Positions 4,556-58,338 of a DNA stretch of 64,000 bases are shown here, in pieces. This stretch comes from Sphingobium arseniciresistens (GTDB taxonomy: Bacteria; Pseudomonadota; Alphaproteobacteria; Sphingomonadales; Sphingomonadaceae). The position numbers and the translations under genes were made by a program. The number at the start of each line of letters is the position of its first letter. Position 1 is the stretch's first letter. Below the pieces are notes generated by a model. That model ran no database searches, was not told the DNA's origin, and worked only from the letters and a program-made list of their open reading frames with translations. The DNA is taken from assembly GCA_029167225.1 (NCBI GenBank), contig JARFNK010000023.1, positions 1-64,000 on the forward strand, in the 5' to 3' direction.

Positions 4556-5707
4556 ATGAGCGAGCCGCTCGTCGTCGACGCGCTGATAGAACAGGCGCAC
4601 AAGAATACCGGGCTCGATCGTTTCGATTCCCAATCCTATCGCGAGGGCCTGGACATTCTGGTCGCGGACCTGAACGCGACCGGACTATCGGAGGGCGGCC
4701 AGGGGCGGATGGCGGCGACCATCGTCGATCTCCTTTCAACCCGGCTGAAGACGACCGACTATCTCAGCAAGCGGCCTGAACTTCTGGATCGACCCATCGA
4801 GCGGCCGGTCTTCGTCTTCGGCATTCCGCGCACGGGCACGACCTTGCTCAGCAACCTGCTGGCCTGCGATCCCGCTCGGCGCTCTCCGCTGACCTGGGAA
4901 ATCGACGATCCGGTGCCGCCGGCGACCACCGCCACCTTGAAGACGGACCCGCGCGCCATCGCGAGGCTGGAGCAGGAAAGGGCGATGCTCGCCGCCCGGC
5001 CGGAAATGGGCAAATATTATCGCAACTCGGCCGTCTATCCCAACGAGTGCATCTTCTTCATGGCGCATGACTTCAAGGCGCTGGCGCTCGAATCTAGGGG
5101 CAAGCTGCCCAATTATCGCGACTGGCTGTTTTCGACCGACATGACGTCGGCCTATGATTATCACAAGCGCTTCCTGCAGCTGTTACAGGCCGACGCACCG
5201 GGCACCTGGAACCTCAAGATGCCGAGCCATTCCCTGTGGCTCGACACTATCAAGGCGGTCTACCCCGATGCGCGTCTCGTGTGGACGCATCGCGACCCAC
5301 TGACCGCGATGGGCAGCTTCTGCTCGATCATCAGCCTTGCGCATATGGGCTTCATGGGCCGGGTGGATAAGGAATGGCTCGCCGAGAACTGCAGCTATCA
5401 GGCAAAGCTGCACGCGGAGCGGATCATGGACTTTCGTGACCGCCATGGCGAGGACAGCATGATCGACGTGCATTACGCGGAGCTGCTGTCCGATCCGATC
5501 GGGTCGATGCGCCGGCTCTATGCGGATCTGGGCGACGACTTCACGCCCGAGGCGGAGGCCGCGATGCAGACCTGGCTGGATGACAATCCGCAGGGAAAGT
5601 TCGGCAAGCATGAATATAAGCTCGACCAATATGGCCTGTCGGTCGAACAACTGACGGCGGGGTTCGAACGCTACCTGTCCCGTTATGATGTCGCGCGGGA
5701 GGGCTGA
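4556..5707 (+). CDS. PAPS-dependent sulfotransferase family protein
   Basis: A 383-residue protein of the bacterial sulfotransferase family (Sulfotransfer_3 type). FVFGIPRTGTTLLSNLL (about residues 87-101) is the 5'-phosphosulfate-binding loop and WTHRDPLTAMGSF is the 3'-phosphate-binding Arg region. Members transfer sulfonate from PAPS to hydroxyl groups of lipids or small molecules, although many relatives in sphingomonad catabolic clusters have no proven activity. The start at 4556 is preceded by a GGGAGAGAATGCC region. Two VOC genes follow, the first only 3 bp downstream, so the three are likely co-transcribed. A soluble cytoplasmic enzyme is expected. Confidence 0.85.
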   Translation: MSEPLVVDALIEQAHKNTGLDRFDSQSYREGLDILVADLNATGLSEGGQGRMAATIVDLLSTRLKTTDYLSKRPELLDRPIERPVFVFGIPRTGTTLLSNLLACDPARRSPLTWEIDDPVPPATTATLKTDPRAIARLEQERAMLAARPEMGKYYRNSAVYPNECIFFMAHDFKALALESRGKLPNYRDWLFSTDMTSAYDYHKRFLQLLQADAPGTWNLKMPSHSLWLDTIKAVYPDARLVWTHRDPLTAMGSFCSIISLAHMGFMGRVDKEWLAENCSYQAKLHAERIMDFRDRHGEDSMIDVHYAELLSDPIGSMRRLYADLGDDFTPEAEAAMQTWLDDNPQGKFGKHEYKLDQYGLSVEQLTAGFERYLSRYDVAREG

Positions 5708-5710
5708 GCC

Positions 5711-6178
5711 ATGATCGTCGGACGCCATTATCAGAACGCCTATGTCACCCGAAATGTCGACAAGGCCGTGGCCCAGTTCAAGGAGCGGGCCGATATCCGC
5801 GCCCTTCACGAGATAGAGGTGCCGGTCAACGTCTGGACGCCCAAGGGCGAGGGTGCGGGTGTGCAGAAACTGGCCTTCATCTGGGTGGAGGACATGCAAT
5901 TCGAGCTGATCGAGCCCAAGGAAGGCGACGTGCTGGCGCTCTTCAGGGACGCGCTGCCCGCCGATGACGGGCTGGCCTTCCACCACATCTGCCATCTCGT
6001 GGATGATTGGGATGCCTTCATGGCGAGGGTGGACAAGCAGCCTTTCCCGATCGTCCTGAAGGGCGGGACGTCTGGCATGTTGGAGTTCGTCTATCTCGAT
6101 GCGCGCGAATGGCTGGGGCACTACATCGAATATGTCTGGATGGTGCCCGAGCGCTGGGCAGCAATGGGCGGAAGATAA
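5711..6178 (+). CDS. VOC-superfamily protein (glyoxalase/extradiol dioxygenase fold)
   Basis: A 155-residue protein with paired beta-alpha-beta-beta-beta modules typical of the VOC fold: GRHYQNAYVTRNVDKAV at the start, then FELIEP, FHHICHLVDDWD and GHYIEYVW, which supply possible His/Glu metal ligands. It is too short for a two-module extradiol dioxygenase and is more likely a metal-dependent lyase, isomerase or binding protein. It starts 3 bp after the sulfotransferase stop and ends 14 bp before a second VOC gene, so it belongs to that operon. No specific reaction can be assigned. Confidence 0.82.
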   Translation: MIVGRHYQNAYVTRNVDKAVAQFKERADIRALHEIEVPVNVWTPKGEGAGVQKLAFIWVEDMQFELIEPKEGDVLALFRDALPADDGLAFHHICHLVDDWDAFMARVDKQPFPIVLKGGTSGMLEFVYLDAREWLGHYIEYVWMVPERWAAMGGR

Positions 6179-48791: not shown

Positions 48792-49661
48792 TCAGTAGCC
48801 CGCCACCATTGCCTCGCTTGTCTCCCACAGGCGCCGGGCGGCCTCGTCGTCCAGCGCTGCGGGGGAGGGGGAGAGCACCCGCCGCACATGGAAATAGCGG
48901 CCGTTGCTAAGCCCCGGCTCCTCATCCGTGGCGAGCCAGACGAGTGTGTCGGCGGCGGCCTCCGGCGAAACGGAGCGATCGACGATCGATTCCATATAGG
49001 CGCGCATCGGCCCGTCGCAGTGGCTGGCGAAGTTGCTCGCGACCACGCCGGGGTGCATGGCATGGGCGACGATGCCCCTGGCCGCTGCCCGCCGCGCAAG
49101 CTCCCGCGTGAAGAGGATGTTGGCGAGCTTGGCATGGCAATAGGCCGCCCCGCCGACAAAGCCCTGCGCGAAGGTCAGGTCGTCCCAGTTGATCCCGTCG
49201 CAATGTTCGTGGCCGGTCGAGGAGACGGCGACGACACGCACCTTGCCCGGCCCTCGCACGGCTGCCGCAGCCGCCAGATTGGGCATGAGCTTTTGCGTGA
49301 GCAGGAAGGGCGCCAGATGGTTTGAGGCGAACGTCGCCTCGAACCCCTCGGGCGTGATGACGCGTTCCGCATGGACGCCGCCCGCATTGTTGAGAAGCGC
49401 GTCGATCCTTGGCGCGATCCGGGCGATCTGACCGGCGGCGTGGGCGGTTTCCGACAGCAGGGAAAGGTCCGCGCGGATCATGGTGAAGTCGGCGCCCGGC
49501 AGCGCGCAAAGCTCCGCTTCGGCGGCAGCGCAACGACCGGCATCCCGACCCACGCCGATGACACGCCATCGCTGCGCAATCAGGGCCTTGGCAGCGGCCT
49601 TGCCGACGCCGGCGCTTGCGCCGGTGACGACGGCTACCTTGGAAATATTGGATGCGTTCAT
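48792..49661 (-). CDS. SDR, retinol-dehydrogenase-like
   Basis: A 289-residue SDR with TGASAGVGKAAAKAL, NNAGGVH, VVAVSSTGH, YCHAK (YxxxK) and AMHPGVVASN. The pattern, including the NHLAPFLLT segment, is close to retinol dehydrogenase/WWOX-type enzymes that interconvert lipophilic aldehydes and alcohols, usually NADP-dependent. Its ATG overlaps the MFS stop by 4 bp, so it is the last gene of a TetR-MFS-SDR operon. An aldehyde-reducing role beside the divergent LuxE/LuxC-like genes would be logical: acid to aldehyde to alcohol. Confidence 0.88.
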   Translation of the reverse strand: MNASNISKVAVVTGASAGVGKAAAKALIAQRWRVIGVGRDAGRCAAAEAELCALPGADFTMIRADLSLLSETAHAAGQIARIAPRIDALLNNAGGVHAERVITPEGFEATFASNHLAPFLLTQKLMPNLAAAAAVRGPGKVRVVAVSSTGHEHCDGINWDDLTFAQGFVGGAAYCHAKLANILFTRELARRAAARGIVAHAMHPGVVASNFASHCDGPMRAYMESIVDRSVSPEAAADTLVWLATDEEPGLSNGRYFHVRRVLSPSPAALDDEAARRLWETSEAMVAGY

Positions 49662-50884
49662 GCCGGTACGGCCTCCATGATCCGTGGGGTGCGACCGAGC
49701 GCCAGAAACAGCGTGGCGCCGACCAGGGTGATGCATGCGCTCAGCATCAGGAACGGGGCATAGGTGCCCCACAGGTTGAGGATGAGGCTGAGTGTCAGCG
49801 CGCCAAGGGCGGCGCCCCCGGCGATCGCCGCGCCCACGAAGCCCATGACCAGGCTGAAGACGCCAAGGCCGAAGCGGCGCGAGACCAGATAGGCGGCGAT
49901 GTCGCCCTCCGCTCCCTGCGCGAGGCCCATGAGCGCAACGGACAGCGCGAGGATCACCGTGGCATCCAGCGGGGATGCCATCAGCGCCATGCCGATGGCC
50001 GGCATCCCCAGCGCCAGCGCGGCGACATGATGGGGCTGCATCCGGTCGAGCGACAGGCCGCAGGCGAATCGGCCCGTCAGCACGCCGATGGCATAGGCTG
50101 AAATCAGCCATGTCGCGGTTTGCGACTGTGCCCCGCTGTCCATCAGCACGAGCTTCATCTGCGCGGAGACAAGACCTTGCGGGAAGTTCACCGCGACCAT
50201 GCCGACGATCAGAACCCAGAAGGCCGGGTTGCGCAGGATCGCGCGATATCGCGACGGCTGGCCGTCGTTCGCCGCGCTGTCCTGATGCGCGTCATGCATC
50301 CCGACATGGGGCGGCGTCAGCAGGACCGCGATCAGGCCGAAGACCAGCGTGACGACGCCGAGCAAAAGATAGCCGTGGCGCCAACCCTCCGCCTCGATGA
50401 AGCCGCCCAGCAGCGGCGCAATCACGGCGCCGACAAGCGGTGGCCCCGTCATCACGATGGAGAAGGCCAGGCCGCGCGCCCGCTCGAAACGTTCGGCCAC
50501 GATACGGGTGTAGACCGGCGATGTCGTCAGCGTGCCCAGCACGATCTGCAGGATCGCAATGCCGAAAAAGGCGCCGATATTCCCCGGTTGGGCAGCAAAG
50601 GCGATATAGGCGAGGGGAGCGGAAAGAACCCCGATCGCGGAGATCGTGCGCACGCCGAAGCGGTCGGTCAGATGGCCGGTGATCGGCTGCGCGATCAGCA
50701 TCAGCATGCCAAAGCTGCCGAGCAGCGCGAATTGGGATCTGGTCCAGCCGAACTCGCCGATCAGTTTCGGCGCGAACAGGCTCATCGTATATGCGCTCAG
50801 CCCAATGCCGAAGCCAAGGCCGATGGTGGCGGCCAGCAACGGCCGCCAGTGCGTCTGAAACTCGCGCCAATAGCCCGAATCCAT
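49658..50884 (-). CDS. MFS transporter, monocarboxylate-porter-like
   Basis: A 408-residue MFS protein with about 12 membrane segments. LTDRFGVRTISAIG is the loop 2-3 signature and GLSLDRMQPHHV the equivalent in the second half. Overall pattern matches the OFA/monocarboxylate transporter group (GFGIGLSAYTMSLFAPKLIG at helix 1). It may import a carboxylic acid or other organic anion, which fits the acid-activating LuxE-like gene nearby. Sits 16 bp after the TetR gene and overlaps the SDR by 4 bp. Confidence 0.9.
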   Translation of the reverse strand: MDSGYWREFQTHWRPLLAATIGLGFGIGLSAYTMSLFAPKLIGEFGWTRSQFALLGSFGMLMLIAQPITGHLTDRFGVRTISAIGVLSAPLAYIAFAAQPGNIGAFFGIAILQIVLGTLTTSPVYTRIVAERFERARGLAFSIVMTGPPLVGAVIAPLLGGFIEAEGWRHGYLLLGVVTLVFGLIAVLLTPPHVGMHDAHQDSAANDGQPSRYRAILRNPAFWVLIVGMVAVNFPQGLVSAQMKLVLMDSGAQSQTATWLISAYAIGVLTGRFACGLSLDRMQPHHVAALALGMPAIGMALMASPLDATVILALSVALMGLAQGAEGDIAAYLVSRRFGLGVFSLVMGFVGAAIAGGAALGALTLSLILNLWGTYAPFLMLSACITLVGATLFLALGRTPRIMEAVPA

Positions 50885-50900
50885 CCTCTCCTCCTCTATT

Positions 50901-51548
50901 TTATCTTGGCTTTATTCCATTGAGGAAGAGCCGAACCGCGGCGCTCACCCAGTCGTCGATTTCTGTGCTGCTCATCGGATTGCCGGAAACCAGCAGGCGA
51001 ACCGGCCCGCCAACGACCATGCTCATGAAGACATTGGCTGCCATGTCCGGCTGCTCGGCGCAAATCGCTCCCGCGTTATCGTGGCGGCGGAACAGGTCGG
51101 TGAGGAACGCGATGACCGGCTTCGCGCCCTGTTCGTAGGACATCGAGAAGATCTGCGGAAAACGGTAGGACTCGGTGTTGATGATCCGCCGCAGGCGGAC
51201 GCCCTCCGGCCGTGAAAGATCAGCGATACGCATCCGGCCGATCGCGACCAGCGTGGCTTCCAGATCCTCCGTCTCGGCCGCGCGCAGTTCCTCGACCGAC
51301 GTTGTGGTCCTGTCGATCGCGCGCTGGACGGTGGCCAGGAACAGGGCCGCCTTGTCCTCATAACGGGCGTAAATGGTGCGTTTCGTCATGCCCATGGCGG
51401 CGGCAACGCCCTCCATGGTCGTCAACTGAAACCCGTTTTCAAGGAACATGTCGAGTGCTGTGTCCAGCAGTTCGGCATGGCGTGCCTGTGCCTGTTCGCG
51501 TGTCGGACGACCGGCGCGGCTTCTGGTGTCTGAAGGGGGTGCTGTCAT
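50901..51548 (-). CDS. TetR-family transcriptional regulator
   Basis: A 215-residue TetR protein. The HTH lies in LDTALDMFLENGF, TTMEGVAAAMGMTKRTIYARY. The start is ATG 51548 or GTG 51554. It is the first gene of the TetR-MFS-SDR minus operon and diverges from the LuxE-like gene by 101 bp, a gap that carries inverted repeats and overlapping promoter-like motifs. It is therefore the likely repressor of both transcripts. The ligand might be the acid or aldehyde substrate of the Lux-like enzymes. Confidence 0.9.
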   Translation of the reverse strand: MTAPPSDTRSRAGRPTREQAQARHAELLDTALDMFLENGFQLTTMEGVAAAMGMTKRTIYARYEDKAALFLATVQRAIDRTTTSVEELRAAETEDLEATLVAIGRMRIADLSRPEGVRLRRIINTESYRFPQIFSMSYEQGAKPVIAFLTDLFRRHDNAGAICAEQPDMAANVFMSMVVGGPVRLLVSGNPMSSTEIDDWVSAAVRLFLNGIKPR

Positions 51549-51555
51549 CTCCACA

Positions 51556-51597
51556 TCATTATTGCCCTTGCCGGATTTTGCGAATCATGCATAATGA
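51556..51597. promoter_or_regulatory. Divergent promoter region with inverted repeat
   Basis: TCATTAT (51556-51562) and ATAATGA (51591-51597) form a perfect 7 bp inverted repeat with 28 bp between. On the plus strand TTGCCG (51568-51573), 16 nt, CATAAT (51590-51595) is a plausible promoter for the luxE-like gene, and the left arm can act as the -10 of the opposite promoter. A TetR dimer bound here could control both sides. Confidence 0.5.
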
Positions 51598-51649
51598 AAC
51601 GTATCAGGTGCTATTAAATGAGACCAGCGGCACTGGCAAGGAGCAGGAT

Positions 51650-53002
51650 ATGGGTGCGGAGGCAGATCGACTGACCGGACTGGTGAGTTCGGAATACAGG
51701 TTCAACATTCCCTATGCGGAATTGCGCGATGCGCAGGTGGCCGCGCTCAACGAACGGTTTCAGGAAAAGAAGGATGTGATCCGGCTTCTGGGTCACCGGG
51801 CGCGGGAAGGCGGCCTTTCGGAGGTGCGGTCACTCGAGGATGCGGTACAGCTGCTCTTCCCGCACACCGCGTATAAGAGCTATCCCGAAAGCTGGCTGAC
51901 GGCCGAGCGCTGGGACAAGCTGACCCAGTGGCTCAACACCATTTCCGCGCATCCGATCAGGCCGATCGACATGGAGGGCATTGCCGACGTCGACGACTGG
52001 ATCGATCGGCTTCAGGCGGTGGGGCATTTCGTGTCCTGTTCCAGCGGGACGACCGGCAAGTCCGCCATGCTCATCGCCTCGCAGAAGGACATGGACTGGT
52101 CGAAGATCGACACCGTTAATGTCTTCGCCTGGGGATCGGGCGTGCAGCCGGAGCAGGATCGCCGCATCATGGGGCTGGCGCCGGTGGCGAAGGTGCCCAA
52201 GAACGAGATCATCGGCGAAGCCCAGCGCGAAGCCTTTGGCGATCCCGCCAAGGCGGCCTTCGCCTATCCCGTGCCGCCGATCACCGTGGGCTCGCTGACC
52301 CGCATGGTCGTTCTGCGCAAGGCCATTGCCGAGGGCACCGCGCTGCCGGGCGACATTGCCGAGCTGGAGGCGACATCGCGCGAACGTCAGGAAGTGATGG
52401 ACCGCGCCGTCGAGATCGCGGCCGACGCACTGATCGAGCATCGCCAGGACAAGCTCTACATCGCAGGCATGTGGAACGCGCTGTATCAGGTCGCGAAGGT
52501 GGTGCGCGAACGGGGATACAGTGCGAAGGACTTCGACGCCGACAATTGCATCTATGTCGGCGGCGGCCTGAAGCGCGCGCAATTGCCGGCCGATTATCAG
52601 GAATTCGTCCACGAGACCTTCAACATTCCAGCCGGCAGGCATTTCCAGAACTACAGCATGCAGGAGCTGAATTCCGGCATGCCCAAATGCCGCGAAGGCA
52701 ATCGCTATCATGTGCCGCCATGGGTGGTGCCGATGATCCTCAACAAGGATGGCGATGCGCTGATCGAGCATGGCTATGACGACGAAATCGAGGGGCGCGC
52801 GGCGTTCTTCGACCTTTCACTCGATGGCCGCTGGGGCGGCGTCATCACCGGCGACCGGATTTCGCTGGACTATCGCCCCTGTGCCTGTGGTCACTCCGGG
52901 CCGTCGATCAGGGACACTATCGCGCGCTATGCCGACCTTGAAGGTGACGACAAGATCGGGTGCGCGGGCACTGTCGATGCATATGTGCGAGGTGTAGCAT
53001 GA
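51650..53002 (+). CDS. LuxE/PaaK-like acyl-protein synthetase (acid-activating)
   Basis: A 450-residue adenylate-forming protein of the LuxE/PaaK type: SSGTTGKS at 131-138 is the ATP loop, LLFPHTAYKSYPESW and FQNYSMQELNSGMPKC are LuxE-family features, and a late CACGHSGP replaces the usual hinge. LuxE activates a fatty acid as acyl-AMP and then acyl-enzyme for LuxC. ATG 51650 is chosen because AAGGAGCAGGAT precedes it; an upstream ATG (51587) has no site. The stop overlaps the start of the LuxC-like gene by ATGA, so the two are translated together. Confidence 0.85.
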   Translation: MGAEADRLTGLVSSEYRFNIPYAELRDAQVAALNERFQEKKDVIRLLGHRAREGGLSEVRSLEDAVQLLFPHTAYKSYPESWLTAERWDKLTQWLNTISAHPIRPIDMEGIADVDDWIDRLQAVGHFVSCSSGTTGKSAMLIASQKDMDWSKIDTVNVFAWGSGVQPEQDRRIMGLAPVAKVPKNEIIGEAQREAFGDPAKAAFAYPVPPITVGSLTRMVVLRKAIAEGTALPGDIAELEATSRERQEVMDRAVEIAADALIEHRQDKLYIAGMWNALYQVAKVVRERGYSAKDFDADNCIYVGGGLKRAQLPADYQEFVHETFNIPAGRHFQNYSMQELNSGMPKCREGNRYHVPPWVVPMILNKDGDALIEHGYDDEIEGRAAFFDLSLDGRWGGVITGDRISLDYRPCACGHSGPSIRDTIARYADLEGDDKIGCAGTVDAYVRGVA

Positions 53003-54426
53003 ACGTTCTGGAAAAGACGCCGCAGGTCGAAGCCGCGGCAGGTCCGCAGCCCATCCTCGTCAACCATTTCGTCCGGGGCGCATTGGTTCAGGGGGGCGCG
53101 GTCAAGCATCGATCCCGCGACCTTGGCGTGGATTTCGCGACGCCGGAGATCGACCTCAACGCGCTGGTGGCGCCGCGCTCGGAATTGCCGCCGCTGCTGG
53201 ACGTGCCGACGAAGGAGATCGTCGATTTCCTGATCGAGGCCGGCCAGCGCATGGACTTCGAGACCAATCCCTATCTGCAGGAAGCGCTTGAGCATACGGT
53301 GAAGGTCAATCCTTTGCCGCGCCGGGTGGTGGAAAACCTGTTCCGCCGCGCCAAGCATTTCCTGACGCGGGAAGGGCTGATGTGCAGCATCGAGTCCAGC
53401 TTTCTCAATCCGGCCGCGCTGGACGGCTGGGTGGAGCGGACCGACCTGCACGGCAATCATGGCGCGCTCCGGGCCTTTCCGCCGCGGATGATCCACATGC
53501 TGGCCGGCAATTCTCCCACGGGCTGTATTTCCTCGATCGCTCAGGGCGCGCTGGTCAAGGCGATCAACGTGTTCAAGATGCCGTCGAGCGATCCGTTCAC
53601 CTGTGTCGCGATGCTGCGGACGATGGCTGATGTCGACCCCGATCACCCCGTCGTGCGCTCGATGTCCGCAGTCTACTGGAAGGGCGGGGACGAGCGGATC
53701 GAGGGTACGCTCTATCGCCCGCAATATTTCGACAAGATCGTTGCCTGGGGCGGCGGCGACGCGATCAAGAATGTCATCAAATATATCGGGCCAGGCATCC
53801 AAATGGTGTCCTTCGATCCCAAGACGTCGATCTCGATGATCGGGCCGGAGGGCTTCGCGTCGCCGGGCGTCATCGAGGAAGTGGCCGACGCCGCCGCCAC
53901 CGATGTCGCCACGATGAACCAGGAAGCCTGCCTTGCGAGCCGCTTCATCTTCGTTGAGGGCGAGCGGGGCGATGTCGAGGAATTCTGCGCCCGGCTGCAG
54001 GATCGGCTGGGTGTCGAGCGCGATACGACGTCCGAATTTGCCCATCCCCTGCCTGTCGAGGTGCGCGACGAGATCGAGATGCTCATGCTGATGGGCGACG
54101 ACTGCAAGGTCTGGGGCAAGCCCGACGGGCGGGGCATGGTGATCCTGACGGACGAGCCGGTCGATTTCCACCCGAGCAACAAGACGGCAAACGTCGTCCA
54201 TGTGCCCTCGCTTGATCATGCGATCCGCTACGTCAATGTCGCGACCCAGACGATCGGCATCTACCCGCCATCGGCGAAGCGCGCGATGCGGGATCGTCTG
54301 GCGAGCGCGGGGGCGCAGCGCGTGGTGCGCCTGGGCGGGGCGGCCAAGCATGTCATGGGTGGCGCGCATGACGGCATGTTGCCGCTGCAGCGCTTCGTCC
54401 ACTGGATGAGCGACGAGGATGCCTGA
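52999..54426 (+). CDS. LuxC-like acyl reductase
   Basis: A 475-residue protein of the LuxC family (ALDH fold). Residues 168-196 (MLAGNSPTGCISS, ALVKAINVFKMPSS) are the NADPH-binding region and Cys311 in MNQEACLASRF matches the acyl-accepting cysteine of LuxC. LuxC reduces the acyl group passed from LuxE to an aldehyde with NADPH. It is coupled to the LuxE-like gene by a 4 bp overlap. No luxA, luxB or luxD is present here, so light production is not implied. The substrate acid is probably not a simple fatty acid, but this is open. A strong terminator follows. Confidence 0.88.
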   Translation: MNVLEKTPQVEAAAGPQPILVNHFVRGALVQGGAVKHRSRDLGVDFATPEIDLNALVAPRSELPPLLDVPTKEIVDFLIEAGQRMDFETNPYLQEALEHTVKVNPLPRRVVENLFRRAKHFLTREGLMCSIESSFLNPAALDGWVERTDLHGNHGALRAFPPRMIHMLAGNSPTGCISSIAQGALVKAINVFKMPSSDPFTCVAMLRTMADVDPDHPVVRSMSAVYWKGGDERIEGTLYRPQYFDKIVAWGGGDAIKNVIKYIGPGIQMVSFDPKTSISMIGPEGFASPGVIEEVADAAATDVATMNQEACLASRFIFVEGERGDVEEFCARLQDRLGVERDTTSEFAHPLPVEVRDEIEMLMLMGDDCKVWGKPDGRGMVILTDEPVDFHPSNKTANVVHVPSLDHAIRYVNVATQTIGIYPPSAKRAMRDRLASAGAQRVVRLGGAAKHVMGGAHDGMLPLQRFVHWMSDEDA

Positions 54427-54483
54427 GAGCGGTTCCGGTCGAGGGGGACGGGTCGCTCTCGGATAACCGATGAGACCTGTCGG

Positions 54484-54520
54484 GGACGGCGCTTGCGAGA
54501 GCAGGCGCCGTCCTTTTTTT
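54484..54520 (+). terminator. Strong Rho-independent terminator after luxC-like gene
   Basis: GGACGGCGC pairs with GCGCCGTCC, extended by further pairs to a GAGA tetraloop (13 bp stem with one G-U), followed by seven Ts (54514-54520). It lies 57 bp after the stop. Confidence 0.92.
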
Positions 54521-58107: not shown

Positions 58108-58338
58108 ATGGCGACCGAAATCCTGCTTCCCAAGATCGGTTTTTCGATGACCGAAGCGCAGATCGCGGAATGGCTTGCCGAGGATGGCGCGGCCGTGACC
58201 GAAGGCCAGCCGCTGTTCCTGCTGGAAGCCGACAAGTCCGCAAACGAGGTGGAAGCGCCCGCGAGCGGCACGCTGCGCATCATCGCGACCGCCGGCGAAA
58301 CCTACGAGGTCGGGACGGTGCTCGGCATCATCGAATAA
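58108..58338 (+). CDS. Stand-alone lipoyl (biotinyl-like) carrier domain
   Basis: A 76-residue protein that is a complete lipoyl domain: LLPKIGFSMTEAQIAEWL, and the modified lysine in LLEADKSANEVEAPASG, ending in GTVLGIIE. No catalytic acyltransferase part is attached. AAGGGAC precedes the start. It may serve a 2-oxoacid dehydrogenase complex, such as that starting with the E1-alpha gene at 63782, or another acyl-transfer system. It lies 10 bp before the Gfo/Idh-like gene. Confidence 0.9.
   Translation: MATEILLPKIGFSMTEAQIAEWLAEDGAAVTEGQPLFLLEADKSANEVEAPASGTLRIIATAGETYEVGTVLGIIE

Follow-up and report, generated by a model that had tools for sequence, protein, structure and literature searches.

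The window analyzed here is a 64,000-nucleotide stretch of Sphingobium arseniciresistens (contig JARFNK010000023.1, positions 1 to 64,000), in which two overlapping genes on the plus strand encode a putative acyl-protein synthetase of a divergent LuxE-type subfamily (51650-53002) and a putative LuxC-type acyl reductase (52999-54426), next to a divergent gene for a TetR-family regulator (50901-51554, minus strand). Judging from sequences, predicted structures and analogy with known systems, the three genes probably form a self-contained, inducible, two-protein carboxylic-acid reductase that depends on ATP and NAD(P)H. The pairing of LuxE-type and LuxC genes is real, the site between the regulator and the pair is conserved, and the three-gene cassette is mobile.

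Pairing and families of the two proteins

LuxC adjoins the LuxE-type gene in 30 of 32 named related loci, which were compared by tblastn at 1e-20 (the contigs of L008, L009 and L013 are short in this comparison); 31 of these loci are proteobacterial, with few exceptions sphingomonad, and one is from Nocardia. In a sample of the family taken regardless of LuxC, 20 of 298 genomes carry the LuxE-type protein at 31 places, and 26 of the 30 loci given, one of which is the window, have a LuxC match within a flank of about 1.5 kb; among these 26, L109 shows only a piece of 56 bits where its stretch ends, and L131 and L121 have their matches on the other strand, the former a piece of 112 bits and the latter a strong LuxC. 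Among 72,556 plasmid records, 17 contain the LuxE-type gene, and comparison of coordinates places LuxC beside it in 17 of 17. In three Pseudomonadota genomes of one genus (L077, L078 and L081) a single open frame of about 820 residues encodes a fusion of PF04443 and PF05893. LuxE and LuxC distances of 47 pairs are correlated at 0.93, with at most 0.38 in 2000 permutations, a value that common descent also raises (L045, whose stretch contains stops, was left out). The subfamily is distributed patchily: apart from the family sample, a narrower profile run on 296 genomes of the order matched nine, one of them weakly, and the subfamily occurs once in the genome of the window. Second LuxE-type copies lie beside or near the first in L012, L015, L022 and L010, accompanied by one LuxC, or in L010 by none that was found.

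All motifs on which the first-pass annotation had based the pair are present in the sequence, namely SSGTTGKS and FPHTAYKSYP in the LuxE-type protein and NQEACLASR with Cys311 in the LuxC-type protein, as is the ATGA at 52999-53002 in which the stop codon of the first gene overlaps the start codon of the second. The LuxE-type protein has 450 amino acids if read from ATG 51650 and 471 if read from 51587. Its predicted model has a PaaK/ANL-type fold with a predicted local distance difference test score (pLDDT) of 82.1, and hhalign aligns it with a PF04443 protein over residues 282-413 (probability 93.9, E 1.6e-7). In Vibrio harveyi LuxE a C-terminal cysteine carries the acyl group. The C-terminal cysteine of the window's protein (C459 in the 471-residue numbering) occupies the same column in all 56 rows, nine of them PF04443 proteins, in two MAFFT modes, and the SSGT-type loop also aligns between the subfamily and these nine; in a smaller alignment (A3) the single classical LuxE row fell outside the cysteine column. 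Most PaaK rows stop at about model residue 452 and some reach 469-470, residues 453-471 being modeled with pLDDT below 50. Because only 19 residues follow residue 452, the model suggests that the C-terminal domain used by ANL CoA ligases for the thioester half-reaction is missing here.

By the profile, fold and residue comparisons, the first protein is a relative of LuxE. In a tree of 60 proteins with an arbitrary root, the eight PF04443 rows form one side of a 100/100 branch, a point where, according to a warning of the program, long branches come together. Since the protein branches apart from PF04443, it is, on sequence, a divergent LuxE-type subfamily and not a member of that family. The subfamily profile, built from 11 diverse members, was run on 398 Pseudomonadota and 396 actinomycete genomes. 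In the former 15 genomes matched, three with full-length strong matches and 12 with weak ones, and PF04443 was found in 11 of 11 weak places scanned out of these 12; in the latter 15 genomes matched as well, with four strong and 12 weak places. All six plasmid records inspected label their LuxE-type proteins 'hypothetical protein', so a family name and a motif would aid annotation.

The LuxC-type protein (475 amino acids) matches PF05893 over residues 68-469 (5.8e-59, 200.4 bits against a cut-off of 21), as expected for the LuxC-like reductase first proposed, although this cut-off is loose: two further places in the genome, which match an aldehyde dehydrogenase of the window, also exceed it with 22-25 bits. 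Against NF052251, the equivalog model of LuxC long-chain-fatty-acyl-CoA reductase, it scores 179.4 bits with a cut-off of 750. The catalytic Cys311 is kept in 31 of 31 and in 9 of 9 rows, one of them a luminescence-type LuxC. By sequence and by model the protein resembles chain 7xc6_A, with an aldehyde-dehydrogenase fold.

Linked luciferase genes, by which a bioluminescence lux operon would be recognized, are lacking on contig C37, where PF00296 has no match; the initial statement that there is no luciferase is thus right for the contig, but 10 PF00296 matches lie at other places in the genome. LuxD gave no match in a genome search lacking a positive control.

Regulator, conserved site and borders of the cassette

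The regulator has an AefR-like C-terminal domain (PF14246, 3.4e-19; PF00440, 7.2e-12) and starts at GTG 51554 or at ATG 51548. All 32 related loci have a divergent TetR homologue, which in L012 lies next to the other LuxE copy. The gap between TetR and LuxE contains a conserved, operator-like site of 25 bp (51592-51616) of the form TAATGAWACGYNNNNGNTGYYATTA, which is loosely palindromic (14 of 25 positions). When the window's 33-base stretch was compared with the 32 named loci, all had at least 20 identical bases, the maximum of 660 shuffles being 20 and their mean 14.9, so that L013 and L016, with exactly 20, are no better than the top shuffle; the second LuxE copy of L012, which lies beside the TetR gene, scores 16. 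The degenerate site is matched exactly, once each, in 21 of the 32 loci, including Nocardia alni, and also in the further loci L044, L092, L106, L107 and L111. In the 6.6-Mb genome of the window it occurs once at up to three mismatches and its reversed control not at all, and this single site offers a handle on the inducing acid. A promoter-like match at 51568-51595 overlaps the site and is at chance level. Since the first 20 or so codons of the 471-residue reading coincide with the conserved DNA site, the LuxE-type gene likely starts near 51650, upstream of which there is an AGGAG, rather than at 51587.

The genes beyond the regulator are less constant. A homologue of the short-chain dehydrogenase/reductase (SDR) of the window was found in 24 of 32 related loci and its major facilitator superfamily (MFS) transporter in 13. 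Of the conserved neighborhood expected at the outset (LuxE, LuxC, TetR, MFS and SDR), the part formed by TetR and the pair holds and the remainder varies. TetR, LuxE and LuxC stand without SDR and MFS in Nocardia (L030), between an AraC-type regulator on one side and another TetR, a GntR and an oxygenase on the other, and in N. beihaiensis (L020), where they are flanked by a sigma-factor/FecR pair and by cell-wall genes. The reverse is seen in plasmid pBSY17_1 of Sphingobium sp. RAC03 (L063, 6246-6532), where TetR, LuxE and LuxC are gone and the surrounding cluster is retained (SDR, MFS, a second MFS, DUF1330, CMD, the lipoyl protein, Gfo, a hydratase and an FAD protein); the gap holds a 47-bp TetR remnant, 85% identical to window positions 51035-51081. 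This state reads as natural loss at this locus, RAC03 not having been searched for a copy elsewhere. In the tree the actinomycete loci L030 and L091 group with the proteobacterial L009 inside the mainly sphingomonad part. Gene presence among relatives, the loss in RAC03 and the grouping in the tree limit the unit, as read from these sequences, to TetR, its site, LuxE and LuxC, with MFS and SDR as frequent companions. A CitE-like lyase was considered as a further part of the cassette and rejected: it is present in 24 of 32 loci but was not found in the window. A different PF03328 protein is encoded about 21 kb downstream of the pair.

Proposed reaction and alternatives

In the proposed mechanism the ANL domain of the LuxE-type protein would adenylate the acid with ATP, the acyl group would then shift to the protein's own C-terminal cysteine and be handed to Cys311 of the LuxC-type protein, which would reduce it to the aldehyde using NAD(P)H. 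TetR, bound to the 25-bp site in the shared promoter region, would repress the pair and probably itself too, until the acid or a related ligand relieved the repression. We infer adenylation, acyl transfer, reduction, direction, cofactor and repression from analogy with LuxE/LuxC and with the GriC/GriD system described below.

Several of our results weigh against this reading. The LuxE-type protein was annotated at first as LuxE-like, which profile, fold and residues bear out, but it has no Pfam match at 1e-3, PF04443 included, and no NCBIfam match; the comparison with family models, on which the annotation was to stand or fall, thus placed LuxC inside PF05893 and the LuxE-type protein outside PF04443, though related to it. 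PF04443 had no match in the whole genome in a search whose control matched one of 14 genomes, below the cut-off; the model itself is sound on classical LuxE (656.9 bits). The LuxE chain of the Protein Data Bank, 7xc6_E, was matched weakly (phmmer 0.011, profile 3.1e-4) and is absent among the fold matches listed, which are headed by ClxA, PaaK and other ligases. Three of the 12 weak actinomycete places were scanned and all carry PF04443, one at merely 32 bits, and several of the nine unscanned ones have tails that by eye resemble ordinary PaaK-type CoA ligases. The model of the LuxC-type protein is middling, with a pLDDT of 72.9 and a root-mean-square deviation of 14 to 7xc6_A. LuxC is missing at four of the 30 places of the family sample (L123; L124, with a truncated match; L126, the same place as L052; and L128) and beside the copies in L010, L018 and L047, the last a short frame. 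Common descent, as mentioned, contributes to the correlation of distances.

The cassette can be compared with several known systems. The one-protein carboxylic-acid reductase (CAR) turns an acid, ATP and NADPH into an aldehyde by means of a phosphopantetheine carrier and a short-chain-type reductase domain. CAR is a single polypeptide, whereas here two proteins with cysteine carriers and a reductase of the aldehyde-dehydrogenase type would act. LuxE and LuxC of luminous bacteria (PF04443 and PF05893; PDB 7xc6) resemble our pair in that the gene for an ANL-type acyl-protein synthetase lies next to that for a reductase of the aldehyde-dehydrogenase type, in both conserved cysteines and, for LuxC, in the Pfam family; unlike them, the window's LuxE-type protein lies outside PF04443 on its own branch, no luciferase is found on the contig, and the pair is accompanied by TetR and its site in a degradation context. 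For the biosynthesis of grixazone in Streptomyces griseus, part of PMC10179220 describes GriC/GriD, an AMP-forming and a reducing protein converting a free, non-fatty acid to an aldehyde. By description, this resembles the cassette in its two proteins, one AMP-forming and one reducing, and differs from it in serving the biosynthesis of an aromatic aldehyde. Islands for flagellin glycosylation in Aeromonas hold luxE and luxC at a locus not for light, as described in part of PMC7874193; from the locus description, they are likewise a case of luxE/luxC outside luminescence, but in a glycan context. In a section of PMC1793995 the LuxC-like MelK is reported with 'no clear homologue of LuxE'. A partial literature search found no description of the cassette.

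Among the alternatives, the most serious, though we consider it unlikely, is that the pair makes long-chain fatty aldehydes and alcohols for storage or wax esters, as a fatty acid reductase without luciferase. Classical LuxE/LuxC act on fatty acids, and on a Caballeronia plasmid an alcohol dehydrogenase gene adjoins the relatives of the pair and genes for a wax ester synthase and a phasin lie within 10 kb. However, the Caballeronia pair sits in another branch of the tree, the island of the window looks made for ring compounds, and wax ester synthase had no match in the 40 of about 61 window proteins that were scanned, the whole genome not having been searched.

The reaction could also run in the oxidative direction, with LuxC converting an aldehyde into an acyl-enzyme by oxidation, after which the LuxE-type protein would transfer the acyl group to CoA or a different thiol. 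The aldehyde-dehydrogenase fold of LuxC, the several CoA ligases among the fold neighbors of the LuxE-type protein and the fact that aldehyde oxidation is usual in degraders would fit this, but the ANL loop and the C-terminal cysteine suit ATP-driven activation of an acid and the C-terminal domain used by ANL CoA ligases seems missing, which makes oxidation improbable. We hold it equally improbable that the importer, the acid reductase and the SDR belong to a single obligatory module for import, activation and reduction, as was first supposed. The window and its closest relatives (L004-L007) share the order SDR, MFS, TetR / LuxE, LuxC, but SDR is missing in 8 of 32 loci and this MFS in 19, L020 and L030 have the cassette without both, and RAC03 kept both after losing TetR, LuxE and LuxC, so a fixed module is not supported.

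If the pair reduces free acids, as the reading of the cassette as an acid reductase has it, it would be a new source of carboxylic-acid reductases, likely with non-fatty substrates, and an example of LuxE/LuxC chemistry operating far from light. A wider view, which we advance with much doubt, is that LuxC and a LuxE subfamily without Pfam or NCBIfam model are a widespread two-protein carboxylic-acid reductase of degraders and producers, which in sphingomonads would form a mobile TetR-operator cassette that reduces an acid to its aldehyde during the breakdown of terpenoids or steroids, perhaps of their side chain.

Degradation island, candidate acid and settings of relatives

The pair and its divergent TetR are located, as had been proposed, in a degradation island, which contains CoA ligases, a fused acyl-CoA dehydrogenase, a lipid-transfer-protein-type thiolase, a P450, a Rieske oxygenase and a KstD-like flavoprotein, with E1 alpha and beta genes (C37, about 63.7-65.8 kb), further acyl-CoA dehydrogenases and a second Rieske protein at or beyond the window end. 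From these genes the island looks geared to ring compounds, and our leading guess, a tentative one, is that the substrate is a bulky terpenoid- or steroid-like acid of this island. Part of PMC8399759 states that in sphingomonad bile-acid degraders the side chain is broken down by yet unknown enzymes. The cassette's ties to this process are its location and a relative in a metagenome-assembled genome named Novosphingobium sp. Chol11 (L016), nothing else; in the available portions of text, 'acyl-CoA reductase' is absent from PMC8399759 and PMC12175502, and 'acyl-CoA' from PMC10653915.

Relatives of the pair occur in varied settings, among them the TomTYG and TomMM plasmids of Sphingobium, from tomato isolates, the Caballeronia plasmid with its wax ester synthase gene, the plasmids of Pseudonocardia and of a mycobacterium described below, and a Paraburkholderia plasmid on which genes for a sulfotransferase and an ecdysteroid-kinase-like protein lie nearby. 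This variety argues for a general acid-reducing module that would serve different acids.

In the Pseudonocardia plasmid pLS1-1 (L041, 11902-14831) the LuxE-type and LuxC genes lie immediately behind a type I polyketide synthase, possibly as an acid-to-aldehyde tailoring or release step. In the mycobacterial plasmid (L040, 10754-14833) the LuxE-type gene overlaps one for an F420-dependent luciferase-like oxidoreductase (TIGR03857), which lies ahead of LuxC.

The two optional neighbors of the cassette lie, like TetR, on the minus strand, so that the three genes (48792-51554) are indeed divergent from the pair: the SDR (48792-49661; PF00106, 1.4e-28; best NCBIfam model PRK06197, below the cut-off) and the MFS transporter (49658-50884; PF07690, 6.7e-32). 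The latter had been called carboxylate-type, with which its nearest models agree (TIGR00890 and NF049980, for oxalate/formate and lactate transporters), but both scores are far below the cut-offs. Similarly, the terminator assigned to the pair is visible downstream as a plus-strand stem-loop of 15 pairs, 10 of them GC, with a T tail (54482-54515), but terminator-like sites taken together are about as frequent there as chance predicts (three found, 2.5 expected).

Outside the cassette, a free-standing lipoyl-domain protein of 76 amino acids (58108-58338, plus strand; PF00364, 7.7e-17), absent from the first-pass annotation of the pair, is conserved in 23 of 32 related loci besides the window, which would suit an acyl carrier between LuxE and LuxC; we dropped this very improbable idea because its relatives directly adjoin E1 alpha/beta genes of 2-oxo acid dehydrogenases in four annotated plasmids, such genes also lie at the window end, and the LuxE-type protein has its own C-terminal cysteine. 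In TomTYG64 no E1 gene lies within 9 kb of the lipoyl relative; in RAC03 the distance to E1 is 4 kb.

At the other end of the window (4556-6178), a sulfotransferase gene adjoins one for a small protein that by eye is VOC/glyoxalase-like, and the same two neighbors are found near the LuxE-type genes of the Paraburkholderia plasmid (L038, 2489-4167).

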